DNA from: Capniomyces stellatus
Lineage: Eukaryota > Kickxellomycota > Harpellomycetes > Harpellales > Legeriomycetaceae
Length of the DNA: 64,000 nucleotides
Assembly (NCBI GenBank): GCA_001661515.1
Contig: LUVW01000031.1
Span: 124,001 to 188,000 of the forward strand
Direction: 5' to 3'
Made by a program: the position numbers and the translations under genes. The notes beneath the pieces are model-generated. The model did no database searches. It was not told where the DNA came from and saw only the letters and a program-made list of their open reading frames with translations. Below are positions 12,331 to 57,600 of the stretch, in pieces; the stretch's first letter is position 1; each line of letters starts with the position of its first letter.

Positions 12331-12361
12331 TTTTTGGATAATAGGAACTTTTATCTTTAGT

Positions 12362-16363: not shown

Positions 16364-16372
16364 TTTTTACAT

Positions 16373-18975: not shown

Positions 18976-19091
18976 AATTGATAATACTGGTTTGCTGTTT
19001 GCTGTTTGCTGTTAAATTTTAGTTATTTGCTGATATTACTACTTGAAAACGACTTGCTGATGAGAAAATAAAAATAGTGCTTTTCACTCGG

Positions 19092-19099
19092 TATTTATA
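19092..19099 (-). promoter_or_regulatory. TATA box of pseudoprotease copy 2
   Basis: Duplicate of the TATA block at 15205-15212, offset 3,887. Confidence 0.7.
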
Positions 19100-19970
19100 C
19101 AAATAAACCATGGACCAAAATTACTAGAATCAGACCCAAATCAGCTCTCATTTTCGTTTCATTTCATTTTCATTTTCATTTTCATTTCATTTTGGGTTTA
19201 GCCTTTTTACTATTGTAAACTTGGTTCTCAATCTTAACTATAAACACACTCTACTCTTGTTTTTGTGTTCTCCTTTTAATACAAACACACATTTTAGTAA
19301 ATTCACTCTTATCTTCACTTTTAAATATCATGTTATAATTTGCAATCATGTATAGGCAGTTTAACAAAACCATACAGGTTGTTGTGGGGATGTTGGTTGG
19401 AGAGAAATCACATCATAGGATGTGGTATATACCTGATTTAGTTGCTCCTATAACACAACTTGATTCTTATTGCCAAACTTGGAAATGTACCATATTTGTT
19501 TAGTTTTTGAATTGGTTTCTATAATCTAGAATGCATTGATCTTCAAGCTTTGGAAATAGCATATCTGGCAATAAGAAAAACGCACTTGCTATTCCATGCT
19601 TCTATCGGGGGTTCAGATTATTCTTGGCGATGAAACAAGCACCAAATACCATAAACCGACTTGATAGCTTGCCATCCAATGTTTTGTTGAAAAATAGCTT
19701 CGGTGTGTGTAGATTCATTTTTTTGTAATAGAAATTAAGTGTATATAGATTTTAGTTTATTTTATCGAAATTAAGGCGTGTGTAGGTTTTGTATTTTTAG
19801 AACCGATTAACTCCGACTTTTTGAAACTGCCGAACCAAGGTTCTATTCAGAATATCAATGCCTTATCTTTAAACTCGTGACTAAAAGTGTAGAAACTGCA
19901 TTTGTTTGACTCATTTACAATCATAGAAACAATAACACAGTGTTATTTATAAAGTAAAAAAACAATGTAC
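19100..19970. other. Duplicate of the 15213-16083 spacer
   Basis: Second-unit copy with the same microsatellite. Nothing further seen. Confidence 0.55.
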
Positions 19971-20250
19971 TTATTGGATCGGGGTTGCCAATTTCTCGGC
20001 ATACTGGTTTCTGAGTTTGGTCTCAAGACTCTTGAACGTCTCGTTTATAAGATCAATAAACCGGATTTCAATTTTCTGGAATTAGGCGTGGAATTCTGCG
20101 CCATTTTTTGCTAAATCAATCTTGAAGGTATCCAACAGAGCTTTTTTTACTTACTTTGACTACCCCTTTTAATTGGCCTATTGTATTCACCTGATTCTCC
20201 TCAACAACCTTTTTGCACCACTTCATACATTCTCTCTCACTGCAGCCCAT
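19971..20250 (-). pseudogene. Decayed C-terminal tail of a protease-family paralogue (copy 2)
   Basis: Exact duplicate of 16084-16363 at offset 3,887, with the same frame change and TAA. The lesions therefore predate the tandem duplication. Confidence 0.6.
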
Positions 20251-20259
20251 TTTTTACAT

Positions 20260-20768
20260 CTTTTTTATTTTTTATCATGGGTTCAATAATACAATAATGT
20301 AAAGTATTGCAAAGCTAGTGGAACAATATCTAAAAAAAGTGACTATTTCAAATACTATCCTACCCTATGTCGTCCCTCTAGAGACACCGTACCTTGACAG
20401 AGTTGGTTCAGTGGGGCTGGTGATGTACTAACCTCATCGAGTCTTATAATTGGGTTGCACGGATTAAAGCCAAGAATGATGCTGTTGCAAGCGTCATCGA
20501 GACTGAGCGGTCATATTCTTTCTTTTGGATAGCAGATGCCTTGATCTTGAGTTCTCCCCCCGAGAAGCTCACCTACCAGCTTATTACGAGCTGAGTTGGG
20601 CGTAAGATCAAAGTCTGGTGAACTCTGATACATGTTGTCAGGAATAAATTCTTTGAGGGTAATTTCTCTAGCATCTTCCCATTTGTTACAATCAATTAGG
20701 ATGTGCCCTATTGTTTCTGGGTGTCTTCTGTGACACATTAGGCAGTATTCTTTGTGTTTGGTGTTATC
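20260..20768 (-). mobile_element. Non-LTR retrotransposon 3' end (copy C)
   Basis: Right-hand partner of the crossover. Reads KEYCLMCHRRHPETIGHIL on the minus strand (zinc-knuckle with variants), has the frame-shifting extra C, and is 5'-truncated near 20768, shorter than A and B. A-rich tail at 20260-20275 (T-rich on the plus strand). Confidence 0.85.
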
Positions 20769-21635
20769 AACCACAAAATAACAAAGTAATAAAAGTGACC
20801 CTCTAGTTAGAGGTTTATTGGTTTACTTTAACAATGTTTTTGGTTGAAAATTAAGGCGCAATACTAAGTGTTTTGTTTTTTTTTAAATGAATAATGTTGT
20901 TCAGGTTTGTATGAACGTTCCTACACCATCAACACCATTGAACCAAAAGAAAGGAAAGAGAGGCTCGTAAAAGCCTAATTCACCCAACTTTGTCAGCCCG
21001 AATGTTGGCAGTTCTAATAAACGTCACTCATCGACTTTTCCACAAGGTATTTGAAGAACTCAAAAAAAGTCTCGGAAAAAGTCTTATATGTTATCTGAAG
21101 CGGGAATCCCAAATAAATCACGAAGATAAAGGTAAATTTGGAACTGTATGCGTCATTATTGTACTTTTAAAGTACAGACAAAGTAAAGAAACAAGAGAAG
21201 TCTGCCACTCGAGAAATTTAGGTATATCAAATTGAAATTGTCTATATGGCTTATGGGGGTTTTAATTCAATTTTGTTTTGTTGATAAAAAATAGGAATCG
21301 AGGATCAGGTTATTGGACTGAATAATAAATTGAATTGGTAAAGCTGGCCAGTAAAATTCGGGGAATATTGTTATTTTGACAAACTTTGCCAATAATATGT
21401 TGAGATGGCAAAATAGTTACTGTGGACAAAAAAAGCCCATTTTGAACACACAATTAAGGAAATCGAGCAACAAAAGTTTGTCAAAAGGGAGTTTTTTGTG
21501 TCAAATTTCGAATTGGGCTGGGAGGAGCCAAATAAATGTATATAAAAAAAAGCAATAAATTTAAGAAATAGAAACAGTATTGGTAGTTTGAAAAAATAAA
21601 TAAATAATAGTGGTATTTATAAGGACTTGATAAAA
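20769..21635. other. Spacer, no supportable gene
   Basis: A short open frame at 20990-21235 has no recognisable homology and ordinary spacer composition. A 14-bp palindrome (CCTCTAGTTAGAGG) lies near 20800. The T/A-rich end precedes the TRA2 stop codon. Confidence 0.5.
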
Positions 21636-30645: not shown

Positions 30646-32255
30646 CTAGTTTGCATCTGCAAATATCCATGGCTTATTCAATGTCATGTACTTTTCAATC
30701 CGATCCCAAAGCTCAATTACCGTGGCCCGATCAGTATGTCGTTTGTGGCGTTCAATGTTCAGCGGCATAATGTTCCACCCCTTAACCTGATCCTTTGGCT
30801 TTTCGTCATGGTACTTTGGATACACACCCAGGCAGTTTTCAAACACTTCTTTTGCCGAGTGCCACTGCCAGTTTGTAAATTGCCAGCTTGCTCCTGCTGT
30901 AAACACACAAACCACGTTTTTCCAATCCCCTGCTTTAAAGTCCTGTACCGAATCAACAATCCTAAACCTCACACTGCTCTCACCTCCCGCTATTTTTCTC
31001 TCCACCACCACCTCCCGTTGCTTCTCCTTGCCCGAGTTTATTACTGCTCTACTATCTACAAACTTTTGTTCCCTTAGAAACTCTTTCACATTGTACATGT
31101 TCACCAATGACGTTGCTGCTGCTGGAACTATTATTATCGCCACATTGCCTCCCCGATGCCCCTTCTTCATTGCTGCCTGTTTTGACTTGCTTACATCAGC
31201 ACCTCCCACCGCTGTTTTAGCCTGACCACTACCTCCTACCTGCCCGCTCTTATCATCCTTGCTCTCAGTAACCATCTTTAGCACCGAATCTGATATGCTT
31301 ATCACATGCGCAAACGACTATTTACCCAGCCATTCACCAATTTTTAATTCACCAACTTTTCATTTAGCTGCTTTAACATCTCAAAAACCTTTTTATTTTC
31401 TTTTTTTTCTCTTTTTCTGCTCTGCTTTTGCTTACCTTGCTGCATGTTATTACCGAGTTGTTTGTAACCAACGTTCTTTCTCTTTTTGTCACTCTTTTTG
31501 TGAATTCTTGATCAATCTATTATTTTGCAAATACCTCAAGTCAAACTACAACTTCCATTTTCTCAATCTTGTTTAACTCGTCTCGTCTCGTCTTGCCTTG
31601 TCTTATTTTTCTTTTTTTTCCTTTTCTTTTTTATTGTCAAGCAGAAACACTGTTGCCAAGTGACTAAAGTATTTTTAAATTACATTCAATATTTTTCTCC
31701 ATCTAATCTCAACTCACTTGATTATCCTCAGCTCTGCTTCGCTTCAACTCGTACGGATTTCCTGTCTCCTCTTCGCCTATTCGTTTATTTTTTACAACAT
31801 GGATTATTATTATTGAGCACCAAACAGTCTGATCCCATACTCTTGTATATATTGTAAATCTTTTATAGCCAAATAGTGTTACCTATGCTGGAAATGTTGG
31901 GACTTGAATCCTTTTTCCCACTCAGATACTCAATCAGATCCGTCTTGAACGTAAAGCTAACTCCAGGAATCTTTGCCGCTTGTGCTGCCTTCAAGTACCC
32001 GTAGTACCCGGTATCCCGGTTCTCCCAAAAGAATATCAAAGATACCAACGAGTATCGATCCGATTTGTTTTCTCCATGGCAATAATCTGTAGCAATATCT
32101 TTGTCAAACGTTGCAACACTGCCAAATTTTATCTCTACGGCTTCATCCAATTTCTTTGTGACTCGCTTCTCCGAATCAATAAACTCGTACTCTTGATTCT
32201 TCAGAATGAATTCCCGCAACACTTGCAAGGGCTTTGCTGGTGTTTCATCAGGCAT
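30646..32255 (-). CDS. CDC73: Paf1 complex subunit Cdc73 (parafibromin)
   Basis: Part of the Paf1 complex on elongating RNA polymerase II; supports H2B ubiquitination and H3K4 methylation. I rebuild five exons: 32255-31883, 31776-31718, 31516-31436, 31388-31353 and 31317-30646, with phases agreeing, 406 residues. Exon 1 holds the Cdc73 N-terminal domain (DRYSLVSLIFF, then TDLIEYLSGKK; compare YYTLDSILFLL and KDLLGYLNG in parafibromin). Exon 3 (FTKRVTKRERTL) matches the VTRDIVSRERVW segment, and exon 4 (VFEMLKQLNEK) the IFAILQSVK segment. The last exon holds the Ras-like C-terminal domain: IIIVPAAATSLVNMYNVKEFL, WQFTNWQW, and NIERHKRHTDR. The intron before the last exon would be only 35 nt, so exon 4 is the least certain. 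Human parafibromin is 531 residues; the shortfall is in the middle. Confidence 0.88.
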
Positions 32256-34404
32256 GCTGTACTATTTTAATATTTTTATTATTATTTACTGTTGAGAATT
32301 ATTATTCAGTTTTTTGTTGTTGTTTTGCTTGCTTCGCTCTTTTTCGCTAATCTGGTCTCTAGAATGTTTAGCTCTGTTATATTTTATTTTGAATTGTTAA
32401 TTTTGAATTGTTAATTTTGAAAAGTAAGAGAGTGATGTTTATTTCATTTAACCAATTCACAACTTGCAAGAAAACCGCAATCACCAAACACCTCCAATCT
32501 CTTGTATTTTGGTTTTGCTATTTTATTTCGGCCGTTTTGGATTTAAATGGTGGAAATAAACGCGATTTATTTGTTTATTTGGTGGTTTTTTTTTGAAAAA
32601 AAAAAATCAATTCAATTCAATTCCCCAAATATATTCCAACATTTAAATAAAATTTTATATATATCCCAACAAAAACCAAAACCCAACATCTGGTCCGACT
32701 TCTACATCAAGCCAGCAAAATTTCTGGCTGAATAGCTTGGTGTGCCACAAATTTACATACATGCATACACAACAAGACTGTTGCTCAGACACCCGACAAT
32801 ACCAGAATGAGATGTTGCAATGGACGGCAGTAGCATATTTGAGTCATAAGCGACAACTAATTGACTGTTGTTATTTCAAATTTTAAGACAATGTTATAAT
32901 AGTGTCCAGCAGCATTTACACCTTCTCTTATTTCAAGTTACTGATGTATGTTGTATTTTTCCTCCAACCTTCTTTCTTACTACCTTATCCTCTTATCCCA
33001 TCACTTTCTAACTACCAACACTAACACCAACACCAACACTTTTATTTAAGATTTTGCTATTTATATTATTGGGTCTTTGTTTTCTAATTGTAAAAGGTTA
33101 GACTTAGTTTTGTAAATATAAGCAAATAAATGTATATAAAAAAGCTCGGTGTACAATAAGAAAGAAAAAAAAAGTTCAATGTACTTTACAATTAATAAGA
33201 AAGTTCATTGCAATAGAATTTGTCCAATGGAATCAACAGTTTTTAAACTGGAATGTAAAACCTCCAAATTCATAGTGGCCATTATGAACCCGTTAGGGCT
33301 TTTGGTTTTTGGATTGGACAGGTTAAGGTTGAACAAAAGGTAGAATCAAGTAAAACAAAAAGTTGAATAAGACGAGACTTAAAGTAAATACAATGATTGT
33401 AATAGAATAGGACAAAGTGAAAGATTAGTAAACTAGAGGCAGAAGTCCATTCAAAAATTAAAAGAACAATTTCATATTTATAAAAAAAAACAAAATTTCG
33501 GTGTTTTATTGGTGAAAGATTATATCCAAGAGAATAAGCAAAAAAAAAAAAAAAGGAAAATTCCCAAGCAATATGCATTGAACTTTCGAGTTGAAGACTA
33601 ATTAAAAGAAAATTTTTTTTGAGTGATAATAAATTGGCGATAAATAAAGCAAAGAATTATTAAAGTTGAGATTCACCTTTCTTGGTTTAATAGTTAAAAA
33701 AAAAGCAAAACAGCCAAAGCAGAGTATTAAATAAAATAACATTATTAAGGACTTTTTACAAGGAGAGAAAAAGTACATACTATAAAGTATTTAATTCGAG
33801 TAAAGAAGCTAAACAGAGTTTTAACAAAAACTAAAAACAAACAAATAGCACAGTTAAGAGTTTCAAGGCTAAACCCAAGATACACCAAGCGAATAGATTT
33901 ACCAAAAGGAATAAAGAAACTAAGCAATTCTAGAGCAACAGTATTTCGGCAAAGAAGAAAAATAAAAAGAGGAATATAAAGGAATAAACAAGTATAATTT
34001 TTTCATGTACGATAAAAACAATCAAAGTAATCAATCGTTTATATATATGCTCAACAGAAAAAAGAATAAAGTTTGAGGACCGGCTTTCATGAATAGAAAT
34101 TGAAAGTAGTAGATTAAGAAGAAAAGATAGAAAGAAAAGAGGCAAATTCAGCGTCAAAGGTGACCGAGAAACACGTACATACCAGCAGCAGCAACAACCA
34201 GCGAATACTTTGATTTCAACAACACTATTGTTCATAAAAAGAGTTACTTGGATTAGGAGTATATAGTATTGTTATTCAAAAGAAAGACAAAACGATCAGA
34301 TAAGAAAAGCAAAGCGTATCAAAGCAATAAAAAGGACCAAAAAATAAGAAACCAAAAAAAAGAAAAAAAAACACACTAGTGATAACTTTGTTGTAAAAGA
34401 AAAA
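32256..34404. other. Divergent intergenic region between CDC73 and eIF5
   Basis: About 2.1 kb, strongly AT-rich. The half next to eIF5 is A/G-rich on the plus strand, a likely 5' leader or promoter. Short frames on both strands lack homology. Nothing else seen. Confidence 0.6.
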
Positions 34405-35586
34405 ATGGCTAACATTAACATTCGCAGAGATGTGCAGGACTCTTACTACAGGTACAAGATGCCACGTCTTCAGTCAAAGATTGAGGGTAAAGGAAATGGA
34501 ATCAAAACAGTGATTCCAAACATGGCAGACATATCAAGAGCGCTTTCAAGACCACCATCATACGCAACAAAGTACTTTGGATCAGAGCTTGGAGCACAAG
34601 TGAAGATTGAGGACAAGAACGACAGGTACATAGTTAATGGGTCGCATGACGCAGAGAAGCTGCAAATAATACTGGATGGATTTATCGACAAGTTTGTGCT
34701 GTGTGGAAGTTGCAAGAACCCCGAAACGGATTTGATAATCAAGGAGGGGGTGATAATCAGGCAGTGTATGGCATGTGGAAAGCGAACGGACGTGGACATG
34801 AGACACAGGCTGAGCACGTATATCATCAAGAACCCGCCACCAAAGACAAAAAAGGGAGGCCAGCACGCATCGTCGGATGCAACAAACACTGGAGTGAACA
34901 GCGTGACGGAGAGCCTGCAGAACTCGAGTGCTGATGAGGACGACGAGCTGACTAGGCAAATCACAGCGGATGCTGCAAAGCTGAAGATTGATGAGGACTC
35001 GAAGTGGGATATAGACGCAGACTTTTCGAAAGAAGCGATTGCAGCCCGTCAGCGCGCACTTGGAGGAACACTGCTTGAAGACGAGTTTGAAGACAATGAG
35101 GACTCGGAAAACGACCCGTACAACCTACTGGGTGACTACATCTCAAGCCAGGATTGCTCAGAGAAGGAAATCTTCCTGAAGGCCAAAGAGCTGGGACTAG
35201 GCAAGAAGCACCGGGCGCTGGTGGTTGTTGTCCAATGCTACTTTAAGGAAAAAGACATTCTAAACCAAATTGCAAACGCCGCAACCATGCTCAACTCCTT
35301 TGGCGACAGCGAAAAGCACCAGAAGGCCATTCTTGGCGGCTTTGAAAGACTCATTGGCGAAACTTACCCAAATCTGATGTCCAAAACCGCACATATCTTC
35401 AAAAAACTGTACGAGGAGGACATTGTTGACGAGGAGACCTTTTTGGCTTGGGCCGAAAAACCCAGCAAAAAGTACGTTAGCCGCGACATCTCCAAAAACA
35501 TCCACCAACATGCCGAAAAGTTTGTTAGCTGGCTGAAAGAGGCTGAGGAGGAGGAGGATGACGACGATGATGATGATTCTGAATAG
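34405..35586 (+). CDS. TIF5: Translation initiation factor eIF5
   Basis: GTPase-activating protein for eIF2 in the 43S complex; controls start-codon recognition. Intronless, 393 residues (family about 400). The N-terminal GAP domain has the arginine finger R16 (human R15) in SYYRYKMPRL, followed by IEGKGNGIKTV and TKYFGSELGAQ. The C4 zinc ribbon uses C100, C103, C121 and C124. An acidic linker follows, then a C-terminal W2/HEAT domain (about 235-380) ending in WAEKP and a run of D/E (EEEEDDDDDDD) that binds eIF2-beta and eIF1 in relatives. The start fits the family N-terminus (MxxNIxR). Confidence 0.97.
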   Translation: MANINIRRDVQDSYYRYKMPRLQSKIEGKGNGIKTVIPNMADISRALSRPPSYATKYFGSELGAQVKIEDKNDRYIVNGSHDAEKLQIILDGFIDKFVLCGSCKNPETDLIIKEGVIIRQCMACGKRTDVDMRHRLSTYIIKNPPPKTKKGGQHASSDATNTGVNSVTESLQNSSADEDDELTRQITADAAKLKIDEDSKWDIDADFSKEAIAARQRALGGTLLEDEFEDNEDSENDPYNLLGDYISSQDCSEKEIFLKAKELGLGKKHRALVVVVQCYFKEKDILNQIANAATMLNSFGDSEKHQKAILGGFERLIGETYPNLMSKTAHIFKKLYEEDIVDEETFLAWAEKPSKKYVSRDISKNIHQHAEKFVSWLKEAEEEEDDDDDDDSE

Positions 35587-36428
35587 TTTTTTTTTTAGTT
35601 TTTTTTTAACTTTATTTACTTGCTGTTTTAACGCATATTTGCCTTTTTATTTAGTTTTATAATTATATATAATAATGTTTGTGTTTGGGTTATGCTTTGA
35701 AAATGGGCTATTAAAGTAAATAAATTAAATAGTAGTATGGACATGAGAGATACTATTAAAAATAAGCAGTTTTTACATTTAGTCAATAACCGCAAGCTTG
35801 CTGTAAAACTCGATTCAAGCATCAAAACAAAAAAAAAGTTGTGTGTAAATTTCAATAAAAAAAAAAGGTGTGTGTATAAGAACAAGCAATGGCTTTTACC
35901 TTTCTTTCCTTCATCAACTCTTCTCTGTATTTGTTGGCTGTCTGTCTGTCATATGCCCAGTCAATGCTCCTATCGATATTCTCCAAGACCAGGGCTGGCA
36001 ATAGTGAGAGTTTGGAGTCCTTGTTGAGGTACTCCTTTGAATACCAGGACTTTTGCTGGGGCGGGACAATGGCGGTGGAATATATTCTGCTGCTGGGGTT
36101 GACCAGGAAGAAACACAGAATTTTTCTGCAGCCTGGCTTTGTCTTGTCAGCCAGCTCGAATGACTGGACTTGGTGCTGGTAATGGTTGGGGAACGCAAGG
36201 CACCTGTTTTCCAGAGTCGAGACACCGCCCAAGTACTGGTTTAAGCTCCCCTCATCCTCAATACCGTACATATTTCTAACCCCAACATTGTCATTCTGTT
36301 CATACTCTGGTTCTTTGACAGACTTTCTAAACTCCAGCCGTGATTCGGTTATGTTTTCTTGCTGGTAGTAATATATGCCGGTGCAAACAATATTCTCGTT
36401 CAGCATCCCCTCAACATGCCAAACACCT

Positions 36429-36439
36429 NNNNNNNNNNN
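36429..36439. other. Assembly gap (11 N)
   Basis: Falls inside the DUF4246 gene just before the conserved WHVEG block. The segment that normally precedes WHVEG is not recognisable on the other side, so some coding sequence is probably missing. Confidence 0.95.
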
Positions 36440-36515
36440 AATACCATATGCAAGCACAAATAAGCTACTGATCAAAGTTTGGGTAAATCAAAACATGTTT
36501 GCGCCAGGCTGTTGC

Positions 36516-37057
36516 ATCTGGCGTGCTATATCACGATTCAATATATCCACTATCTGTATACCCCCTTTCCCTTCCAAGTTACCTATTTCTTCTTGAGCCT
36601 TCATTTTCTTGACAAAATCTTCATACTCCTCCACAAAATAGCTATCGGGATCTATACGAGCCACACGTCCATCTATGTAGCTTTTGACCGAGTGTGTAAG
36701 AACCTTACTAAACAGCGGAACAAAACACTCCAGCACTCGCTCAATGCATCCGTACATGCGCTGGTGGTTTTCTGGGTTGAGGTTGTTGATGTACGAAAGG
36801 ATTTTGGTTTTTCCTGTCGAATCCACCTCCACCTCTGAGGGCAACCACTGGAATTTTCCTGATAGAAACACATTCTCAGAGCTGTTTGCTTCAGCGTTAG
36901 GCTGTTTGACGAAAACTACATTTTCAGTTGATCCAGTTCCGCAAACAGACCCCTCAATATCCGTGCTGCTCGCCTCCAGGTTCTTAGTGGTGGCTATGCT
37001 CACGCCGTTCACAAGTGGGTACAGCGATGGGTGAACCAGATCCAGCACCTGTTCGTT
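36516..37057. repeat. Exact 542-bp repeat, copy 2
   Basis: Identical to 1-542. Beyond 37057 the copies part abruptly, inside a codon run, without an intron boundary. Confidence 0.92.
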
Positions 37058-37468
37058 CGTTTGTTTTTTATGTTTTGTTTGTTTTTTGTAGCTAGAAAAC
37101 AGAGACAAGAGTAGAAAATGTTTTCATTTATGTTTTTATGTTTACATTTGTGATATAACATGTTTGGACTCCTTGTACAAGGATTTTTTTTTTAGTTTGT
37201 TTATTAAGTATATTTGTGTTTTAGATTTAGTTTAGAGAATCGGTGATTCAACAAGTGTGGAGAGAGAAGTTGTTGATCTTGGGAAGTTTCTGCGTTGTTC
37301 AAAGAGATGGAGCGTTTTCCTTTTGAAATTTACATTGAGAGTAGTAAAGAAAAATGTAATGTTAAAAAGAACGAAAATCAAAACTAAAATTTACAAAGGT
37401 CGATGTGGGATACAAAGATAAGACAAAAAAGTAAAAATTTAAAAGTAAAAAGTAAGAGTAAAAAAAAA
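37058..37468. other. Spacer beyond the truncated DUF4246 copy
   Basis: T-rich then A-rich non-coding DNA between the DUF4246 break and the NELF-A stop codon. The first 30 bases are T/G-rich low complexity (TTTGTTTTTTATGTTTTG), directly at the break. Confidence 0.6.
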
Positions 37469-40192
37469 TTATGCAGTGGATTTAGTTTTCAACCGTTTCT
37501 TGAGCATTTTCCATTCACCACTTCCAGTATCCATTTGGAAAACAACCTGTTCAATAACGAGTTTAGAAGAATCAGTGGGATCAACAAACTCGGTTCTTTT
37601 CAAAACGACATCAATCACCTCAGCGCCACCCTTCCCGCCTGGTCTTTGAATCGGTTTGCCAGACAAAAAGTCTATAATCCGTGCACGGTCTTCGGCGGTA
37701 ACAACATTCGCATCGCGGAATATCTGTTCGATGATTGCGGGATCAAACCCAGTGTTCTGGTCCTGGCTGTTGTCAGCGTCCTCTGCACCTCCTGTATTGT
37801 TTTCTTTCTCATCGTCGCTAAGAATCTCATCAAGAGAAACTTGGTGACGGGAGTTTACAGTGTTTGTCCGCAGATTAAAGTCAGAAACATTGGCTTTTCG
37901 TCCTCGCTTCTTTGGCCTGGTCTCTTGGTCCTCCTCATTACCATGTTCATCACCGTTTTCATCATCTTGTTCACCGCTGTTACCATGCCCCTCTTCCTCA
38001 TCAGATTTATCATTATCGGTTTCCTCTGAATCGTCGTCCATTTGCTTTTTGGTCTTTTTTCGGCCTCTTTTGGCTCCTTTGGTCTCTTTGACTCCTTTAG
38101 CTTTAGTACTGGCTCGAGTTTTCGGCTTGGCTTTAGGTTTGGCTTTTGTTTTGGTCTTGGTGCTCTGGTCTGTTTGCATATCTTGGTCGTCACTACTGGG
38201 TTTGGTGTTTCCGTTTTCGCTGTTGGCTTGGGCACTCTTCATGCCAGCCATTCTATTGGCCAGACTTTCCTGGTCATCAGCCACATCAACTTCATTGTCA
38301 CTATCACTACTCTGGCCATCTTTTTCGTTTTCATTTTCGTTTTCGTTTTCATTATCATTTTCATTTTCATTTTCTGAAGCGGATCCTGACTCGGGTTCAG
38401 ACTCTGATTGGGAGTCGTTTGTGTTGGTGTTACTGGTTCTGCGGCGTTCAACAGCAAGTTTTCTTTTTGCCTTCTTGGCCTCTCTTTCCTCGGTGACTTT
38501 GTCCTTTTGATCTTTTTTGGTTTGCTCTCTTTCCTGCATCAAAACTGCACTGTCTTCCATATCAACAAACTGTATTCTTGTCCTCCTCTGCAATCCCCCA
38601 AGAACACCGCCACCACTCCCGCTACCACCACCAGCACCACTGGCACCACCTCCACCGCCGCTAGTGCTGTTGGCCCTAACTTTTGTTTCAAGCGCCTCGT
38701 TGCTCTCATCCAAGTTAGACTCTGCACCCGAGCTTCTTCTCCATGAAGGCACACCTCCGCTTACAGCCTGAGACGCGCTGCTGTGTCCAAACGACGGCAG
38801 AGCTGTGCTTGTCAACACTCGTTTCTTGGAAGGCATTATTCCCAGCTTGTTTTTTGGCTGCACCATTTGTCTAGCCATTTGTGGGCGCGCATTCATCATT
38901 GCCGATACGGCTCCAAACCCTGACGTTCCTGGAACCACCCCAAGTCCAGCCACGTTCCCATGCATGCCTGGCTGCAAATTGGCTCCATACGGCATGTTTG
39001 GCCTTCCACCTCCACCCATGCCTACGTCAGGCGACAGTCGGCTACCACCCAGTTTGTTGGCCTCGTTGATTGCGTTCAAAGGGCTGTCACCAAATATCAG
39101 TCTTTGCGCTGAGTTTGGCGTTGATCCTGGTGTCAGCGATGGCGACTTTCTCCGCATTGTTGACATTGGCATTGCTGTCCGAATTCCTGTCGTTTTGATT
39201 GGTCGTATTCTGCTCCCCACTGTCCCCAACGCCGCTTTTGCTGCCTTATCCAGAATCTCCAGTCTTAACTTGTGATTTATCGCAAACTCTGGGTTGATTG
39301 AAATTGAAAGTCCCCAGTTATCCGACAACTCTGCGCCATTAGTCTCTACAGTCTGGTCCTGATCTTGACTCCTATTCTTATTCCCGTTTAGTCTGCTAGT
39401 CACCGTTGCGCCCGAATAGCTTCCTATTGACATGTTTGGTGCTATTGACTTGCGCATATTGTCGCTCAGGTAGCTCCATTCTCTTGGGATAATCCTAAAG
39501 TTGTTCGTCTTGACTATTTCCGTAACAGTGTCAATCGCATCAATCAAGCTTTTGCTCACTCCCTCGTCTATAAACTCCTCCCTCTCCACATCCCCCAGCG
39601 TCAACCCCGACATCTTCCCGTCTATCCCCACCCTCCCCAGCATCTGTCCGATTATCTTTACCCAAAACACATTGTCTTTAACCGCCAAACTCGACACCCT
39701 AGCCACATCCTCTCTAACCAACCCCAGCTTTCTCTCCCCAAGACTCACCAACGAAAACAGTATCGTCAACTTTGTAGCACTGCTCAACTCGCTCCATCGG
39801 TCCGCCACTATCCCCAAATTTCCCACCTGCATCAACTCTGAAGTTATATTACTACTAAGTCTCCACGGCAGCACACTACCCCCTGATCCTGCTCCTAACC
39901 CCATTCCTGCTCCCGACACCGTGTCCCTTTCCTCAACCTCCATTGGTGTGTTCTCCTGCCCTTCTCCACCATATTTTTCTTCACTAGTTGCCCTGTTTAT
40001 CACCACTGCCTCCATTTGTCTATACCCCAGCTTTCTCTTCAGCTTTTTAATCATAAATCCTGCTTTGCTATACAGCTCTTTCTTTGTGCTGTTCGTGTCA
40101 TGCTTCCGCGATAGTGGTACCACTGACGACACCTGGCTTTCTAGCTGCTCAAGCCAGTCCCCCGCTGGCTCTCCCATCCGTACATCCGTCAT
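37469..40192 (-). CDS. NELFA: Negative elongation factor A (NELF-A) homologue
   Basis: NELF-A binds RNA polymerase II within the NELF complex and holds it paused near promoters. Intronless, 907 residues (human 528). Three family blocks occur in order. Residues about 129-250: DRWSELSSATKLTILFSL, VFWVKIIGQML, and FRIIPREWSYLSDNMRKSI, matching the human helical NELF-C-binding domain (LSSAVKLKLLLGTL, PWVLMVADIL, LPLECQYLNKNAL). Residues about 535-590: RTRIQFVDMEDSA followed by EAKKAKRKL, matching GVKLLDISELD and EAKRRRKT. Residues about 814-905: IFRDANVVTAEDRARIIDFLSG and VVFQMDTGSGEWKMLKK, matching MFKTANKVTRPEKALILGFMAG and TVFEMNYATGQWTRFKK. Between them lie long disordered inserts with EN repeats and lysine-rich tracts, which account for the extra length. 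Assignment is from memory of the human protein, not a search. Confidence 0.85.
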   Translation of the reverse strand: MTDVRMGEPAGDWLEQLESQVSSVVPLSRKHDTNSTKKELYSKAGFMIKKLKRKLGYRQMEAVVINRATSEEKYGGEGQENTPMEVEERDTVSGAGMGLGAGSGGSVLPWRLSSNITSELMQVGNLGIVADRWSELSSATKLTILFSLVSLGERKLGLVREDVARVSSLAVKDNVFWVKIIGQMLGRVGIDGKMSGLTLGDVEREEFIDEGVSKSLIDAIDTVTEIVKTNNFRIIPREWSYLSDNMRKSIAPNMSIGSYSGATVTSRLNGNKNRSQDQDQTVETNGAELSDNWGLSISINPEFAINHKLRLEILDKAAKAALGTVGSRIRPIKTTGIRTAMPMSTMRRKSPSLTPGSTPNSAQRLIFGDSPLNAINEANKLGGSRLSPDVGMGGGGRPNMPYGANLQPGMHGNVAGLGVVPGTSGFGAVSAMMNARPQMARQMVQPKNKLGIMPSKKRVLTSTALPSFGHSSASQAVSGGVPSWRRSSGAESNLDESNEALETKVRANSTSGGGGGASGAGGGSGSGGGVLGGLQRRTRIQFVDMEDSAVLMQEREQTKKDQKDKVTEEREAKKAKRKLAVERRRTSNTNTNDSQSESEPESGSASENENENDNENENENENEKDGQSSDSDNEVDVADDQESLANRMAGMKSAQANSENGNTKPSSDDQDMQTDQSTKTKTKAKPKAKPKTRASTKAKGVKETKGAKRGRKKTKKQMDDDSEETDNDKSDEEEGHGNSGEQDDENGDEHGNEEDQETRPKKRGRKANVSDFNLRTNTVNSRHQVSLDEILSDDEKENNTGGAEDADNSQDQNTGFDPAIIEQIFRDANVVTAEDRARIIDFLSGKPIQRPGGKGGAEVIDVVLKRTEFVDPTDSSKLVIEQVVFQMDTGSGEWKMLKKRLKTKSTA

Positions 40193-43100
40193 TTCTTCCT
40201 TGCTCTGGTATTTATTCTCTTCTTTTATGTCCCTCTATTGCCCTTGCCCTTTTTTTCTCTTTCTTTCCTACAACTAATCCTATATATATACATACATACA
40301 TTAAGCATCAGTTTTCGTCTCCTTTTTTACTCCAATGATTGCTCCAAGTTTTAATGTTAGCTTAAAGTTGTATTCATGTTTAGTTTGGAATTGTGTTTTC
40401 ATTGCTTTATTTATGCTCGTGACAGTCTTGCCAATTAAAAAAAATCAAATTCTTATAAGTCTCTCCATCTGCGCTCAACAAAATATATCCACAAACTACA
40501 TTCATTTGTCATAACCCAATCGTATCCATACTTCAACTACACTGTCACTCTACTCGATCTCTTTGTCTATACTTGGTTTGCCAATCAACGCCTGTTGTTC
40601 AAAGGTCGGTAAATAATATGTCTAACTCTCAAAACATCACGTGTTGTATTTAAGCCCTAGTCAACCACCAACCCCATATCCCACCCCTCCGACACGCCCA
40701 CCCAATTGCTCAGTGCCCAATCAATAAACATAAACAACATCTACTACCACCACCAATATACTATAAACTTGAACTCTTGCCGCTTGGGTCGTCTCTTTAA
40801 CATTGCCTTATTTACTTTTGCGCTAATATTTGACAGGTGGTTCTGTTACGAAGCGCACACTCCATCAATTCCCGCCATCGTAAAGTAACGCTTGCCTGTT
40901 CAAAATATTCTTTAAATGAGCTCACGAAAACCAATGCATTTAAAATAATATCTTTGGCTATCTTCCATACCCAACTCGAGACAATACTGAACCACAAAAA
41001 AAAAGCCAAGTCGAGACACCAAACATCCCAAGAAAATAAAAAAGAAAAGGCATATCATAATAGCATAATCAACGCTTTACAACCAACACCCTGGAAAAAG
41101 TGCATTGTCATTTCGTTTAATTCTTCTATTAAACATCCTTTACTCTCTGGTAATCTTGCTAGTTTTATTTTTTTTTGCAAAATATAAAAAGCAACTATAA
41201 CTGTCGATTCAGTTAACTTTTAATCGTCAAAAAAAATATACTGTTCTTCCTTATACTTTTACTCTCTCTTCTTTTTTCTTTTATTCTAAAGCAAGCAAGG
41301 GTGGGTTGACTATGTGCCTTTTTTTTTCTTTCTCCAACAACAATATTTCTTTTGTACATCTCATCCAAAGATCTTTTTCCTATTATGTCCTCTTTTCTCT
41401 AGATCTTTTCTCTTTTTTTAATCTTAATCTAAACTTTTCGCGTATTTCGCCAACACAAGCAATCGTAGATCACCACTATCCGGTCTATACCTGGTACAAT
41501 CTAAACACAATTCCACGTAAAATATGTATTTATTTAATATTACTATGCATTTTTATACAAACCTTTTTAGTTGTTCGCCAAATATTTCTCTAATCAGTTT
41601 TCTGTTATCTCTTCTTTATAGCGAACATTTAGTTGCTAAGCTATGTATATCGACTATCTTTAAATGTCTTAAAATGTGCTAAAAGTCCTATTATTATTTC
41701 TATTAAACGATAAATTTAAGAAAGAAGGGTGTGTTGAGTTTTATTTTCAGAAATCAAACTTATTTATTAGTAAAAATAGTGATAATATTTTACTTTGTAT
41801 TCTTTAGTCTCTTGTCTTCAATAAAAAGTCTCTAACTTTATCTTTAGATTATTTAATTTGTGGGCTTCTGTTTTTTATTGATTCCTTTTATTCTCGAATT
41901 TCCTATGTTTGATCCTGATTCCAAAAAAAACATTTTAAAAAAAAAGAAAGAGTAAAAAAACCACACTTTAATTTTTGGGTTAAAAATGGAAATCACTTGC
42001 TTTGTTTTATTTATTTTTTCTTTCACCAAATTACGTTTTTGCATTTTTTTGAAGGGGTGGTTTTGTTCATTTCACTAGTTGAATTTTTTTCCTTTTCTTT
42101 TATTCTTTTAATTTGGTATTCAGTTTTACTCTTTTAGCCTACTATTTATTTTTTAGCATTTTTTTTTTTACTCATTAGACGAAAAGACTAAATTGGTGAG
42201 GGTTTGGATGAAATAGAACGGTGGTTGATTCTAGTTATTGTCTCGCAGAATTGAAACTGAATTTAAATAGAATGATTTGCATTCATTGGCCACTGCGTTA
42301 TTAATCTTAATCTGAATAGCTGAAAAACAAATGATGCACAATAATGAGATGAACGCTTTAGTTTACAATCAAGTTAATAAAAATTAAGTGCAATAGATTA
42401 AGTTAAAGTGACATTATTTATTTACTTTACTAATATTACTATCATTACTACACGAAAGACTATTATTCAAACTTTTCAATCAGCTTGATTTAAAGCCAAT
42501 AGAATCATCAATATTTGTTTTTTTGTGTAAATACATTTTCAATTGCGCCAAATAAAAAATAAAATTGGCAAATAAAATATGTTGAGACAAACCAATGAGA
42601 TCCGCACATCCAAATTGAATCGTTGAAGGGGGGGGGTTTTTCCGCTTTTATTCATCCTGAATTTTACGCGACAAGAAAATAAAGGCCAAACTCTTATTCT
42701 AACACCAGAACCAAACTCTTGAGACTTTTACTTTAAAAATTGCTAATAAAGCCCTCAGTAACCCTAGCATTCATAGTTTGTACCTTTGAAAGAGCCCATT
42801 TGTACTTTTTTTATAACTAAATGGTTTGGGGGCTTGGTTTTTACTTTTTAACTGATATATTCTATCAGTGCTATTTTTTAAACTGACTTCAAGTTTAGCC
42901 TAACCTTTGAACAGTACCATCCCACCATAAACAACTCGGATGCTGAGTCCAATATTGCCATTTGTGTATTTAGTTGTTTATTTGCATTGTTAATCGTGCT
43001 GAACTTTACAGATATGCTGATCATATGCAAAGCGAATCATTTAATGTCTGTTTTAGACTTTAACCTATTCCAAATATGAGGATATCAACACTTTCCATGA

Positions 43101-48604: not shown

Positions 48605-51600
48605 TTACTCGTTTCCAATCAAAGAAAAGAACTGTCTAAGAGCATCAGAAAGAACCTCAGAAAGGCCGTTGATGTCGCGTAAAACAACGTAGAAATCAAA
48701 GGGGAAAGTGTCAAGGTATCTGACCATTTGGAGTTCGATTTTGCCGTCGGGAGTAGTGTTGTAGTGGACGCGTTTGATGTCAGTAATAGAGTTGGAGTGA
48801 GTAGATTTTTGAGAATTGGAAGTGGAGGTGGATGTGGGCGTGGATGTGGACTGGGATTGGGATTGGGGTTGAGGGTTTCTGTCAATGATGACAAAGACAA
48901 TCATGATTTTGTGTTCAAGAGCGTTTCGGACGATTTGTTTGATACCGGCGTGGTCTTGGCATACGCCATCGGATAAGATGAGCATGAGTTTCCAAAGGTC
49001 AGAATTTTGGGAGTTTGAAGGGGAGTTGTTGAACATGTTGATTGCGGTGTTGAGGAGTAAGTTGGTGTTGGTAGAGTCTTGGTTGAAGGAGAGTTGGGTG
49101 ATGGCTTTAGCGCCGTTTTCGATGGAGAAGGATTGAGAAAAGTCGGTTAGGAGTTTGACGTTTTGGCCAAAGGAGACAAGACTTAGTTGGCCAACGTCGA
49201 GGAGGTTGAGGGAGCTGGTTAGGAGGGAAAGGGTTTCAAAAGTGAGTTTTATGGCGTTTGGAGATTCAGCCATGCTCTTTGAGTCGTCGATTGCGAGCAT
49301 GACGAGGTATTCTCTTTTGTTGGGTTTTGTGCGTCTGAGCCAAATCTTGTCTTTTTTGTATCCAGAGGCAATGTACGGAATGATTTTCTTCATATTGAGA
49401 CGTTTTCCGGTTCTGTAGTCGCCCTTAAGTTGCGAGGCTAAGGTAGGTTCGAGAATAAGTTTGAGTTGTTCGCTTAGGCTGATGGCTTTGTCGTGTGTAG
49501 CCATGTTGTATGCTTGCCATAGCATGTTTGCTTCTTGCTCAACGTTTCCAAACTCTTGCCAATTCAGCGTAACAGTTTCCAGGTCAGCACGTAACTGATC
49601 AATATCGATTTCGGTGTTTTGTGTGTTGGTATTGTTTATTTCAAACCTGTCTTCAACAACATTGTTTTCGTTTTCAGTCTGTTCACCATTACCGTTTCCA
49701 AACGTAATCAGTTCGTTTTCAGTGTCTAGTAGCTCGTCTGAATCGTCCAAATCATTACCGTTTCCATCACTATTGTTGTTGGGGTCAATCTCAGAATCGT
49801 CATTTGAAGAGTTGCTCTTGTGTTTGTTTGATCCTTGCTTGTTCTTCTTGTGGAGTTTTGATGTCAGCTCTTTGATTCGGTCCATTGCAGCTTGTTTCTT
49901 TTCCTCCTCAGTCAGTTCGGCTGTAGGTTCAACATTGTTTTCTTCTTTGAAATTGCCCATATCCTTGTTGGAATTTTCTTCAGTGTTTGGGTCTTGTGGC
50001 TGATCGCCTGAAACAACCGTTTTTTCCTTGCTCTTGTCGTCAACAGCTTGCGGGTCCTTGTCCTGACCCTGTTTAAACTCTTCTCTTTGTTTCATAGCCT
50101 GGTCTTTATCCGCATCAGCCATTGCAGAGTTATCATGCTGTTCGTTTTCAGCAACCATTTGGTACTGGTTGGTTTCATCTGTTTCCATATTGTCACTGTT
50201 TTCTCCACTTTGATCTTTGGTTTCTTCCTGGCTGTCTAGGTCGCGGTCCACCATATCAAGTTTCTGCTCCCACTGTTCCATAGCATCAGCCAGCGATCTA
50301 AGAGGATTATTTTTCTGCTCAATTTCGTGTTGCAAATTGCGTCTGTTTTCCTCCTTGTCCGCCTTTTCCTTGTTTTCCTTGTTCTTGTTGTTTTGTTGGC
50401 TTTGTTGTTGCTGTGACTTGTCTAGTTGATTTAGCGGAATAAACTGCGACTGCTCGTTGCTGCTATTGTCAAACGACGGTTGGGCCATGCTTTGGTTGTT
50501 TGGCATGTCGTTATTATCTCCATTTTGGTCGCCCGAATCATCGTTTTCAGCACCTTCATTATTGTCGTCTGGTTTGTCCTGGTTGTTTTGATCTTGTTTG
50601 TTCTTGGTTGACTTGGCTTGTGTCTTGTTCGATTCTGACTCGCCTTCATTGTCTGTCTTGCCTACCTCTCCTCCTCCAACCCCAAATGTCTGTGGGTTTG
50701 ATTCGCTTTGATCATTAAGCTTATTGTCCAGTTTGTTTTCAAGATCGTCACCCTCCTCGCCATCTTGACCGTTTCCTGAATCTTCGTTTGACTGGTCCTG
50801 GTCTGTTTCTTTGTTTGGATCTTGATTTGGAATTCCTGAAACTGAATGAGGATCTTGATCCATTTCCTCACCTTCTTCTCCATTTTCCTCACCTCCTTCC
50901 TTTTCACCTTCACCTTGACCTTCACCTTCACCCTCATTTTCATCAACCGGTACAGCAGAAGTTGAACCATCAGCTTCACCCAACCCATCGTTCTCGACTT
51001 GGGATTGGTCAACATCCATTTCATTGCCTTCACCATTGTTTTGATCATCATTCTGATCATCATTTTCACCTTTTTCACCATCATTTTCACCATCATTTTC
51101 ACCATCGTTTTCGCCATCATTATCGCCAACTTGGTCATTCTTGTCCTTGTTGTTCTTGTTGAATTCAGGGTCATTAAAGTCGTTGTTGTCCAATGAATCT
51201 TCAAATCCTGGTCCTTCGTCTTCGTTCTTGCCAATGTCAAGGTTTAAGTCATCGGGCAAATCAAGTTGGTCTTTGATGTCGGTGTCAACGTCGGCAATAG
51301 GGAGTTTTGCGCCTAAGCCATTTGGATCCTGTTCATTGTTGTTTGCATCATCGCCTTCACCATCATCCTCATCACCGCCCATATCCTGGTCGTCCTGATC
51401 GTTGTTTTGGCCATCATCATCGTTGTTATCGGCTTCATTTTGGTCAAGATCGTTGCTAGGTTTTGTGGATTTCTTTTCTTTTTCAGGTTTGTTTTGAGGG
51501 TTGGAATCTGGTTGTTCGGGATCGGGATTGTTGTTGTCCATGTTATCATCGGTGTCTTTGGCAACCATTTCTTGGTCTTTGGATCCCTGATCTGCAACTT

Positions 51601-54600
51601 GGTTTACTTGACGTTCGGCCTTCTTTTGGTTCTTGTTGTTGCCAGAATCATCATCATCTTCATTGTTGTTATCATCGTCTTGCCACATCTTTTCGTCAAT
51701 TGAGGTTGGGTCTGTGTTGTCGACATTTCCCATTTGTTCGTCAAAGTGGTTGTTTTCATCTTCATCATCGTCGTTGTCCGAGTCGCTTGAATCTGACTGG
51801 TCTTCTAAATCAGCCTCACCCACTTCGCCTTCAAAATCGGCATCCATTTCAATTGCGTCTTCGTTTCTGTCAATTTGATTTTCCTTATTCTTTTCTTTTT
51901 CAGCCTGCTTCTCCTCCTCAGTCTTTTCCTCCTCCTTGGTTCCCAGAACTTGTTCTTCGTCTTCGATTTCGTTGCTTACGTTCTTGGCGCCATCAGTGTT
52001 TCCTTCTCCCATTCCAGCATTAGTGTCAAACTCATCACTCTTCATTTTCGAGTTATCACCAGTATCGTTTGATTCATCCTCGTTCTTCTCAGCTCCATAT
52101 TTTGCTACTTCCAACGCTGCAGGCGATGCAAGACCTCTTGTGAAGATGGTTGTGGATAGCTGGACAAACGCTGTGCATGATCTCACAAACTGGTAGTGGT
52201 GCTGCGACAATGAGTTGATCAGATGTTGCAAGCAAGAGTTGAACTGTGCTATCAGCGGCTGGATCTTGTCGTTCACTAGCGATTGCAAATACACCACGTA
52301 TGGTTTATTCGCCTCGTTTTCGGATATTTCCTTGCGGATTTGTGCTGTTTTTACGGCTAATTCCACAAGTAAAGTTGTGACTTGGCTGATTGACAAATTG
52401 CTGAACACTGAGTTCACAAACTCTGAGCGTTCTTTGATTTCATTAGGATTCATGTCCCACTCATCGACTGTATCTTGATTGAGAGCGTTGGCTTTGTTTT
52501 TCGTATGACTGGTGTTGAACAGAGTTGTTTTGTACAGTTTGCTGTAGACATCAAGCTGTTTAAAGACGTTTTGAAGAGTAACTGTGACGTTTGTGGAAAG
52601 GTTGGAGATCAAAACAGTCAGTTCACAGAACATGTTGTCAATGTCTACTGTGTTTACTGGTGTGGTTTTAGGGCTGTCCAAGAACAAGTTGAATGAGATT
52701 GCTGATTCGTTGTTATGAGTAAACCGCAGCAAAGTGTCTAGAACTGGAGTTACCCAGGCGGAAGAAACCGGGTAGAGGTTTAGTGTTTGGTTGAGTTTGG
52801 ACACACAAGTGGCGATCCAATCATCGATCTCAAGAGCGTCGAATAGGTTATCTTTATTGTTTAGCCAAAGCAAACTGTATGCAGTGGTAGGCGATAGAGA
52901 TGTGTTTTTAGAGTTGACAAACACGAGCTGATAAATAGAGTTGATGTCAGATTGGAGGCTGGATGTGGCTGAACAAAGCGATTCTAGGTCGGATTTTGCA
53001 GTTTCCAACTCTTTAGTGTCGGATTTGGAGATTGAAATGGAGGTTGCAGATGAGATTTGGGTTAGAGAAATAGTGGTTGAGAGACTTGACAAGCACTGGT
53101 CAAGAGTGTCAATCACAGAGTCAACCAACGATTTCTTTTCAGCAAGACTTGTCAAGACGGTTTCAGAGTTGTCAGAACACGGGGAGTGGTAGTGTTCAAA
53201 GCGGGTCATATCGTGGCTGATATCAACGTGGTTCCAAAGGTTAGCAATGTGGTTGAACATAGTTGTTTCGTTTAGGACCAAGCAAGTAACATCGCGTTGG
53301 TTGGAAACAAGAGTTGACCAATGTAGATTCATTGCCAATAACTTTGAGATTTGGTGTTGAGGAATTTCGTTTCTTCCGTTGATTTTGGATGCTTCAGAGT
53401 TTGTTGTTGCTAATGAAGAAGCTGCAAGTTTAGCGTGCTGGAGCAGAGTGACTAGCTGGAAGTACGAGTTGTTTGACTGTAAAAGCAAGGGGATTGATGG
53501 GTGAGAGTCTAGCTGTTTGTTGCAAGAGTTGGTGTGGATTGAGGTTACGTAACTGTCGATGTTTAGGCTTGACTGTTTTGATAGAACCTTGAACAGGTCA
53601 AGATTGCTTGGGTCAGATCCGGTCTGCAACGAGCTCTCTGACAGTTTTGAGTTGTAGTTTGAATTCAAGCCTAGTTTCTTGGCCTGTTTCAGCATATCTA
53701 CAAGCAGTTTGCTCCTCAGTTGTTTCTGCTGGCTCCAGTACGATCTTATTGCTTTGGCTTGCAACATATTCGCTGATTTCTTGTCTAGCAACTCAGGCTT
53801 AACCAAAACCTTTCCGGTTTCTGGGTCAATAATCCCGTCCTCATTCTCATCATCGTCGTTTGTAACGTTGATGATTTTGATGGTTCTTTTGACTCTAATA
53901 GCTTTGGTTTTGAACATGGCGTTTCCTGATGGCTCAGTAGTAATATTCAACTCCTTGATTCGCTGCTTGTACTGGTCTACCTTTATCTGCGACTGTTTGA
54001 TCAGAGTTTCGGCCTTGTTTGTTAGTTCCGATGGTGTTGTCAAAGTCTGGAAGTATTTGATTTCGCTGATTAGTTCGTAGATGTAATTGGACAGGTTATC
54101 GTCAATGTTGTCATAGTCGATTTGCTGCAACTCCAAAAAGTCCTCTTCAACGTCTTCAACGTCCTCACCCTCATCACTGTCAACCTCCATGTCGTCGTTG
54201 TTTGCGCTGGTCACGTGATTCTTTGTTCTCTTTGGTGCGTTTGCTCGAATGCTGGTGATAAACTCATCAAATTGTTTGTTTAGCTTTGAGCTGCCCAGTG
54301 CAATAGCAACGGTTTTGGGGTTTGGCTGTGGACTGGTCCAGAATCCAAAGTTGGTTTTGCTGCTTGAAAGCTTCTTGTTTCTCATTTCAAACCACTTGTT
54401 AAACTCTGTAAACTGGATCTTTAAGTTGTTGTTTAGTTTTGGGTGGTTGTTGATAAACCGGACCATTTTTTTGTGGACGTTTATCAACTCGGTTCTAAAC
54501 ACCAAACTCTTGTTTTCGCTTAGTTGTCCAAACAAGTTTTGCGCCTTGACCAGGGTTTCTGTTGTGACTGACCACTTGTTAAAGTTCCAAAACCTGCTTA

Positions 54601-57600
54601 TTGACGAGTCTATCAGTTCTTTCAGCTGTAGGTCCAGTAACGCACGGCTGTTTTTGGTTCGTTTCTTGCTCTTTTCTAGCTGACCAGAATCAGCACTGCC
54701 CAGCATGTTGGTGTGGGCTATGTTGATTGCTGCGTTGTTTATCAGTGGAGTTGCCAATTCGTAATCAACAATTGGTGCAATTGAATACGCTAGGCAGCAG
54801 GCACACACTCCTTGCAAGTAGCCGTAGCTTCTGAGCTTGCTGGAAACAAAGCCCAGATTTGTGTTGTTTAGACACGCCTTGTCGGCAATCTGAATCTTTG
54901 TGTTCAAACTTTGTTCAATAACTGAGTTTACCGGCATGAGCAGCGAGTCGCGCCATTTCTTTAGGCATTTGGCCAGGTGGTAATGCGTTCGCTTGGCACC
55001 TTCCTTCAACGCAACTGGGTTGACATCACGCCAAGACGAAATCTTTACAAACTCGGCCAAGTTCTTTGAAATAGCCATTCTGCTGTCATCAACATTCTGC
55101 TTGATCAAATTCACAAACTGAGAGTAGTACGAGATTGAGTTGTCAAGGGCAATTGAGACCGCATCGTTATCCGCACTCACCGACATGTATCCAGAATCTG
55201 TTGATTCAAACACCAGAAGCGCCTTGCGGTGCTTTGAAAACGTTGCTAATAAACTCAACCGAGTCTCAAACTCTCCCAACGCACACGTCTGCAGGAACCG
55301 ATCAACCAGCTCAACTATCGACTGTGGTGTCAGTTGCTTCTTGACCGTTTCTGCGCCGTCCTCCTGCTCGCCATCCTCCTGCGCCGGATCTTGCAGAGTC
55401 AGAATGATTGTGTACAGGTGGAACCAGTAGCTGTTCGCCTTGTTAGTGTGCTTGTTATGTTCGATTTCCAGCAGTTGCGGCCAGCTGTACAGCTCCAACT
55501 GTCTCCAGCCAATAATTTGCTTGCTTATCAAATCCAGCTGTATTTGGATTGAAGTTGCCTTTGAGCTGTACGCCTCCCAATCCTGAGACCTGCTGAACAG
55601 CGACTCTAGCCCTGAAAGAATCTTTGCAACCGGAGTGGTGATCGGCAAGTTCAGGATTTTATTCGTCAGCTGCTGGATTTGCAGAAGCACGGGGTGTTCT
55701 GGCCATTCAGAAAGCAGAGTTGCAATCCGGCCAACCAGCGGGTTCAAACAGCCATTCAACTTGGACGCCTCACTGGCATTGCTGTCATGGTAAAAGTCGT
55801 ACAATCTAACGCCCTTCTTGTCAGCAGGGTTGTTTATCGTGTATAGCTTGTACAATGGGTGGTTGGCTTCAGCCAGATGTTGGCTAAAGTGGGAAATCGC
55901 ATTGGTAGCCTTTTTGCTGCCCTTTTTAGGTTTGTTTGGTGCGTTTTTGTCTGTTTTTACTGTTGCTTGGTTTGTTGATTCGGCCTGCTTTCTTGTTATG
56001 TAGCTTGTGAGCTCGTTTGAACTTAGTGAGTTTACAAGTTCAGTGGCAAGAACAGCTAAATGCGAGCCACGCAGTCTTGAATCAACATGTACACCAAACT
56101 GGCGCATCTCCACGTCAGCCTGCTTAGCGCCGCCACTCCCTACCTCAGAGTCAACAGAAATGTCGTTTACTGATCCGTTGATGAGATCAGAGTTGTTTCC
56201 ATTGGCTCCATTGGCTCCATTGGCTCCATTGGCTCCATCAACGCTCAGTAAAGCCCACAGTTTCCCCTCAAACTCGGAGGCCCACTGGTTACCTTGGCTG
56301 TTCATTTGGAGAACCAGCTTGGAATGGGCTGATGAATTTGAGACCTTGATTGCTGGGTCAATTAGTTTGCTTGGGTTAAAGGTTTCAAAGATCCACTGGT
56401 GCAGGCCAAACAGCTTGGTGACCACGTGTTCGTCTAGATCAGGAATAATCTCTTTGCCCATATCCAAACCATCCAACTCGGACTTTCCATCGATTCCAGA
56501 CTCGTTTTGTTGGTTCAACACATCAGTATCCGACTCTAGCAAAAAGTCATCGTCGTAGCTTGGGAACCACTCGTCAAACTCCTTTTTGTTTCGTTCCAAG
56601 TCAGACAAATCAGCGTTTAAAAAGTTTTGCTGCTCAGAGCTGCCTCGCTTCTTGTAAAAGTTTGAAGTTTCAATGTCGCGCTGTGTTTTCAGGTTCTCCA
56701 GTTTCTGCCAAATAGTGTAGAACTCGAGCAACACGTCGTTTATAAAGGTGTAGGTTTGCTGGTTTAGTTCCGACTGCTTGTACACGGAATATGCCAGCTT
56801 GTTCAGTAATATAACCAGGTAGTTTTGGTACATAATTGACTCTGACCCATCGCTCAAAGTCTTCATGACTGAGGATTTGAGGTTCTGGTTCTTTGCCGCC
56901 TCACTGTTATACTTTACGCTTTCAATTGATTTCAGGCTGTACCTGATTGCCGACATTGTCTTTTTCGACAGCAAAAACTCCAGCTGACCATCACTGTCCC
57001 TGCTTGCACTGCTGTTGACCAAGTGGTTAAACGGAAACTCGTTGATTTTGCTGCTTGTCAGCTGCGCCACGCATTCAGTTACCGAGCTCAGCGATAGTCT
57101 AAACTGGCTGCTGATAAACTCGAGAGATTGCAGGTTGTGTCTGATGCTATTGGCTTGGATAGCCCAACTCATTACAATGTCCTTGTAAGCACCACCAAAC
57201 TTGCCAATTAGCTGGTCAGTGGCAAAGCCTAGTGATGACTGCATTGCGCCAACTAGGTACTCGGCGTTTTTCACAGATTTGAGCTCAGTTTTCGACAAGC
57301 TAAAGTGTTTAGGAAGGTTGTTTGTTGCATGGACTATTGTCACCATATCAAGGGTGTTGACAACCTTGGTCATCTCAAGAAGTCCATCCAGAACCCGCCT
57401 CATTGACTCCCACAGCAGTCCAAACGAAATCTTGCTGCCCTCGTCACCCACAGTGTCGCTGGAACTTGCAGAATTGTCTGGTCTGTACACCGATAGCGAT
57501 TCCAAGTCCAGGATTCTAGATCCAATTGACTCGCAAGCCCTGATGTCTGACTCGGTCAACGAATTTTCTCTGCCTGACCCGGCAAACGAGCTGAAAATGG

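Follow-up and report, generated by a model that had tools for sequence, protein, structure and literature searches.

The best-described counterpart of the gene reported here is human NELF-A, a subunit of 528 amino acids (aa) of the negative elongation factor (NELF), which causes RNA polymerase to pause in animals (PDB 6gml chain U; NELF-AC crystal structure 5l3x). Its tryptophans W24 and W89 insert into NELF-C and anchor NELF-A, and the human stretch 45-186 takes in the extended region required for NELF-C binding, as described by Vos et al. (PMC4940160). Several stretches within human NELF-A 255-288 have been reported to crosslink to RNA, overlapping crosslinks to RNA polymerase II (Pol II) and Spt5 (PMC9068813), while the portions of the literature examined assign no separate function to the C-terminal domain. 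We analyzed 64,000 nucleotides of the fungus Capniomyces stellatus (GenBank assembly GCA_001661515.1, contig LUVW01000031.1, positions 124,001 to 188,000; hereafter the window), in which the minus-strand frame at 37469..40192 encodes a 907-aa protein that is almost certainly a NELF-A homologue. This is a known family in a new kingdom: NELF-A in a fungus whose kingdom's model yeasts are without NELF.

An older review links NELF to complex animals (PMC4215175). NELF-A and NELF-C have also been reported in Dictyostelium, Chlorella and Loa loa, which, like the fungus described here, have NELF outside insects and vertebrates with a conserved A-C core (Vos et al., PMC4940160). An initial reading of this locus, made from its letters alone (the sequence-only reading), had held NELF to be missing from nematodes; according to the same study this is so for C. 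elegans and is not so for Loa loa. NELF-B and NELF-C/D are described as widespread and lost in two yeasts, with NELF-A and NELF-E called more recently derived; apparent NELF-A homologues are noted in some unicellular eukaryotes, the HDAg-like part being found just in animals and Capsaspora (Chivu et al., PMC11482795). The fungi named in the NELF literature examined are the two yeasts. Among the open-access papers listed by our searches we found no report of NELF-A in fungi, nothing on NELF together with chytrids and, for Mucoromycota, NELF just in the abbreviation list of a figure legend. Public domain databases list the NELF-B and NELF-C/D families for some zygomycete and chytrid fungi.

Evidence for a fungal NELF-A

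The NELF-A gene is one frame that runs without interruption through 907 codons and a stop, its ends exactly at 37469 and 40192; its strand, which the sequence-only reading had not given, is minus. A protein search returned six homologues, five from Smittium and one from Zancudomyces (E 6.9e-123 to 6.2e-91), which are 37-42% identical to the 907-aa protein and share its block order. Mean column identity across the seven-protein alignment is 46%. Because the six homologues match and align in the same block order, the 907-aa frame is not a chance open reading frame. In their source records each is named either 'uncharacterized protein' or 'hypothetical protein', they carry no precomputed Pfam domain, and the Zancudomyces protein model starts about 60 residues later than the other family members. 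Zancudomyces belongs to the Harpellales (Kickxellomycota), and Smittium is also placed in the Harpellales. Wider fungal spread was sought in three protein searches, each scoring just the 7,997 candidates with the most shared words; these returned 6, 6 and 4 proteins, none from beyond Smittium and Zancudomyces, which is not evidence of absence elsewhere. The gene is single in the 24.5 Mb assembly of 59 contigs, where the Smittium mucronatum homologue gave two matches, both within the NELF-A gene. No Rfam families were found within 36000-42000 of the window.

Comparison of the fungal family profile with 177,635 distinct PDB sequences placed two full-length NELF-A sequences at the top (best E 9.6e-9, about 1e-8), and low-complexity matches began at 0.014. 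With the linkers removed from the profile, three sequences were found at E <= 10, all of them NELF-A. Most of this signal comes from the C block (domain E 3e-6 and 1.8e-4); taken by itself, the N block was not significant in these searches (domain E 35; 1.5 and 0.17 without linkers). Using hhalign, the N region of the fungal profile aligned with human 45-186 at E 1.4e-6, with a probability of 90.5 and 30% identity. Both blocks were also scored against human NELF-A beside 5000 shuffles per block that keep local composition, of which 1842 (N) and 1940 (C) gave any score. The N block scored 13.8 bits and the C block, the strongest human match, 35.2 bits against human 442-520; no shuffle was as high in either case (0/5000 each). 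A Foldseek search with the predicted model of the N-terminal domain gave NELF-A chains as all five best matches, and no other family in Pfam or PDB fits the blocks better. The identity and the fungal origin proposed in the sequence-only reading are upheld.

Against Pfam NELF-A_N (PF23553, cut-off 27) the single sequence scored 15.7 bits over residues 126-248. This family was matched by five of the seven family proteins (best 20.6 bits, E 4.6e-4) and unmatched by the other two. A six-frame NELF-A_N search of the whole genome returned no match, though the NELF-A gene is there, and the tool therefore misses diverged members. The profile check of the N block is thus divided: weak for the single sequence, positive by hhalign and by fold.

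Domain organization

Compared to its human counterpart, the fungal protein shares the N region with both tryptophans, a long flexible tentacle and the C-terminal domain, in the same order. It differs in its length (907 aa, not 528), in about 85 extra N-terminal residues ahead of the W24 equivalent, in a long acidic/basic linker and in a middle motif that is loosely similar. The N-terminal helical domain and extended region, supported by hhalign, shuffles and Foldseek, occupy residues 106-340 (39173..39877, minus) and are the predicted NELF-C/D-binding part. W110 (codon 39863..39865, minus) and W177 (codon 39662..39664, minus) align with human W24 and W89 of the NELF-C pocket and are invariant in 7/7 fungal proteins. 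Of the HDAg-like part of human NELF-A (89-248), which contacts polymerase and RNA, the hhalign alignment covers residues only as far as 186.

Within the tentacle, the fungal alignment shows a conserved basic box, QPKNKLGIMPSKKR, at residues 445-458 (38819..38860, minus). This QPKNKLG box gave no signal against human NELF-A, 428/5000 shuffles scoring as high. The basic-acidic middle motif spans residues 534-585 (38438..38593, minus). It holds two of the strings quoted in the sequence-only reading, RIQFVDMEDSA (539-549) and EAKKAKRKL (571-579); the third, MDTGSGEW, is also present in the frame (887-894). Residues 541-570 form the family's best-conserved 30-residue bin (0.81), a sign that the motif is important in these fungi. 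For 5/7 proteins, its best match along the human tentacle falls within 246-295. The motif fits the human tentacle in position and composition, and homology to human 246-295 is suggestive only. Residues 586-812 (37757..38437, minus) form a long low-complexity acidic linker, with 59 D+E and 33 K+R among 227 residues, that is poorly conserved in the family.

The C-terminal domain lies at residues 815-900 (37493..37750, minus) and matches human NELF-A 442-520. Two helices and three strands are predicted for it (mean pLDDT 73.6), and the model gave no fold match. It is well kept, as had been supposed from the sequence, and the fungal protein marks it as a conserved domain deserving structure determination. 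Compared to the Dictyostelium, Chlorella and Loa loa homologues, the fungal protein is set apart by retaining a C-terminal domain that matches human.

Partner subunits in the genome

Partner subunits named in the sequence-only reading were sought in the same genome; NELF-B and NELF-C/D are there, and NELF-E was not found. NELF-B gave two COBRA1 matches in C10:115071-115961 (E 6.4e-19 and 1.5e-10), and its first frame, of 275 aa, matched human NELF-B at E 1.4e-13. The NELF-B gene (locus L005, 182-2368, plus strand) consists of two long frames in the same direction, of 275 and 423 codons, separated by a gap that is probably an intron, and has a glycine-rich stretch near its end. NELF-C/D gave two TH1 matches in C11:140110-141979 (E 1.4e-14 and 2.3e-19), and a 211-aa frame matched NELF-C/D at E 1.7e-13. 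Spt5 is also encoded in the genome (E 3.1e-20).

Human NELF-E gave 37 matches in the genome at E <= 0.01, all to its RD-repeat or RRM part and none touching residues 1-144; the NELF-B-binding end is reported to be residues 1-138 (PMC4940160). A diverged or intron-split NELF-E gene could be missed by this search. One of these matches, at C6:167951-168277, reaches beyond the RRM further than any other; the 659-aa frame around it, judged by its four RRMs and C-terminal part and not by a family search, reads as a poly(A)-binding protein.

The Integrator subunit INTS2 is represented at C58:408988-409731 (minus; locus L020; E 1.1e-39), within a 2,502-codon frame, and matches the solved INTS2 at E 2.4e-16. 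PDB entries 7pks, 7ycx and 8rbx hold NELF subunits together with INTS2, and the two complexes therefore meet on the polymerase in human. The INTS1 and INTS5 domains, HEXIM and 7SK gave no match in the genome, in searches without a positive control, so that absence is not shown.

Proposed mechanism and alternative explanations

We consider it likely, at roughly 80%, that this fungus has a negative elongation factor with at least A, B and C/D, in which the 907-aa protein is NELF-A, working as follows. The N-terminal helical domain and extended region would bind NELF-C/D, with W110 and W177 as anchors. The tentacle, which is long and flexible and bears a single strongly conserved basic motif, would reach Pol II, Spt5 and nascent RNA. 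The small conserved C-terminal domain would make one further contact. Acting with DSIF, the complex would slow the polymerase or hold it early in elongation, and the held polymerase would then be released by a kinase, or transcription would be ended by Integrator. Complex formation, binding to polymerase and RNA, pausing and release are what we infer for the fungal factor, and a function as an early-elongation checkpoint is somewhat favored by this analysis. Without NELF-E, HEXIM and 7SK, the complex might pause weakly or mainly serve early termination.

A true NELF-A/B/C complex could also act without focal promoter-proximal pausing, in early termination with Integrator, in RNA handling or in a diffuse slow-down, animal-style pausing having come later with NELF-E and HEXIM. 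The presence of INTS2 speaks for this, as does the failure to find NELF-E or, in uncontrolled searches, HEXIM and 7SK. However, pausing indexes are reported to be higher in species with NELF-B and NELF-C/D only than in species without NELF (PMC11482795), and an A/B/C complex is therefore expected to pause somewhat; we judge a factor without focal pausing to be rather unlikely. A different doubt concerns the origin of the gene. Smittium and Zancudomyces inhabit insect larvae, which makes contact with host DNA possible, and NELF-A could have been acquired horizontally from an insect host, or host contamination could account for the contig. However, the fungal proteins are deeply diverged (37-42% identity to the 907-aa protein), NELF-B and NELF-C/D are encoded elsewhere in the assembly, on contigs other than this one, and this contig holds fungus-like genes, such as one for DUF4246, whose known range is fungal. 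The N region is 30% identical to human, as compared to the 55% that the NELF-A proteins of human and Drosophila share (PMC4940160). An insect source is thus very improbable.

The remaining explanation is that the protein is not NELF-A and is instead a nuclear protein specific to fungi, with helical and low-complexity parts that resemble NELF-A by chance. Several results weigh against our identification. The Pfam NELF-A_N cut-off is reached by 0/7 family proteins, and single-sequence scores are weak, with two coiled-coil matches ahead of NELF-A 441-521 (E 0.0056). Large regions of the protein have a biased composition. The middle motif does not rise above shuffles: its profile score against the human tentacle is equalled by 402/5000, and the per-protein scores are equalled by 45, 20, 52, 13, 35, 276 and 1 of 500 shuffles. 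The claim of three NELF-A blocks accordingly stands for their order and for the N and C blocks, which beat shuffles, and is not borne out for the middle block, which we dropped as evidence and retained as a lead. On the other side, NELF-A is matched by two distinct folded blocks that follow its own order, NELF-A comes first in the fold search, and the partner subunits NELF-B and NELF-C/D co-occur in the genome, so that chance resemblance is scarcely credible.

Evolutionary implications

Identification of the protein as NELF-A means that NELF was not lost throughout the fungi, contrary to the picture drawn from the well-studied yeasts. Provided that descent was vertical, a fungal NELF-A that has kept both end domains dates the A subunit to the common ancestor of animals and fungi or earlier, and the yeasts become examples of loss. 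The idea that NELF-A was added on the animal stem is weakened. The sequence-only reading had gone further and placed pausing machinery in the fungal ancestor. For the presence of a fungal NELF-A this is borne out; the case for ancestral pausing is weaker, since presence in the fungal ancestor is a parsimony argument drawn from a single fungal group, the sampling covering Harpellales.

Evenly balanced, in our estimate, is the broader proposal that a working fungal NELF of A, B and C/D, without NELF-E, HEXIM and 7SK and beside Integrator, forms an early-elongation checkpoint, with NELF-A and its C-terminal domain dating at least to the animal-fungus ancestor and not to the animal stem. Here the yeasts would have lost both complexes, and the C-terminal domain would be an ancient docking module kept since animals and fungi diverged. 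These data draw attention to NELF and Integrator having been retained together. A fungus with NELF-A/B/C and INTS2, in which NELF-E was not found, offers a natural system for determining what NELF-E, HEXIM and 7SK add.

Neighboring genes in the window

On the same strand as NELF-A and roughly 6 kb away, a frame at 30649-31317 (minus) carries the C-terminal domain of Cdc73 (PF05179, E 4.2e-50), which belongs to the Paf1 elongation complex; its nearness to NELF-A is probably a coincidence. A partial DUF4246 gene at 36491-37123 (minus) adjoins NELF-A and carries an exact copy of the gene at 6-998 (minus), with E values of 1.4e-32 and 2.1e-44, respectively, and identical 300-base copies; it is a recent duplicate, apparently truncated. 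The gene for translation initiation factor eIF5 lies at 34348-35583 (plus; PF01873, E 7.4e-40; W2 domain, E 3.1e-22).

Open reading frames for trypsin-like secreted proteases with long C-terminal parts lie in 9662-20856 (minus), with a PF00089 match for 9665-11392. Two of them, both of 572 aa (13406-15124 and 17293-19011), look identical, and 300-base units recur across this region at a 3887-base spacing, 99% and 74% identical. At the other end of the window, a frame exceeding 5,100 codons (48605-64000, minus) runs past the edge and, recognized by reading rather than by a family search, resembles midasin, the giant ATPase of ribosome assembly.
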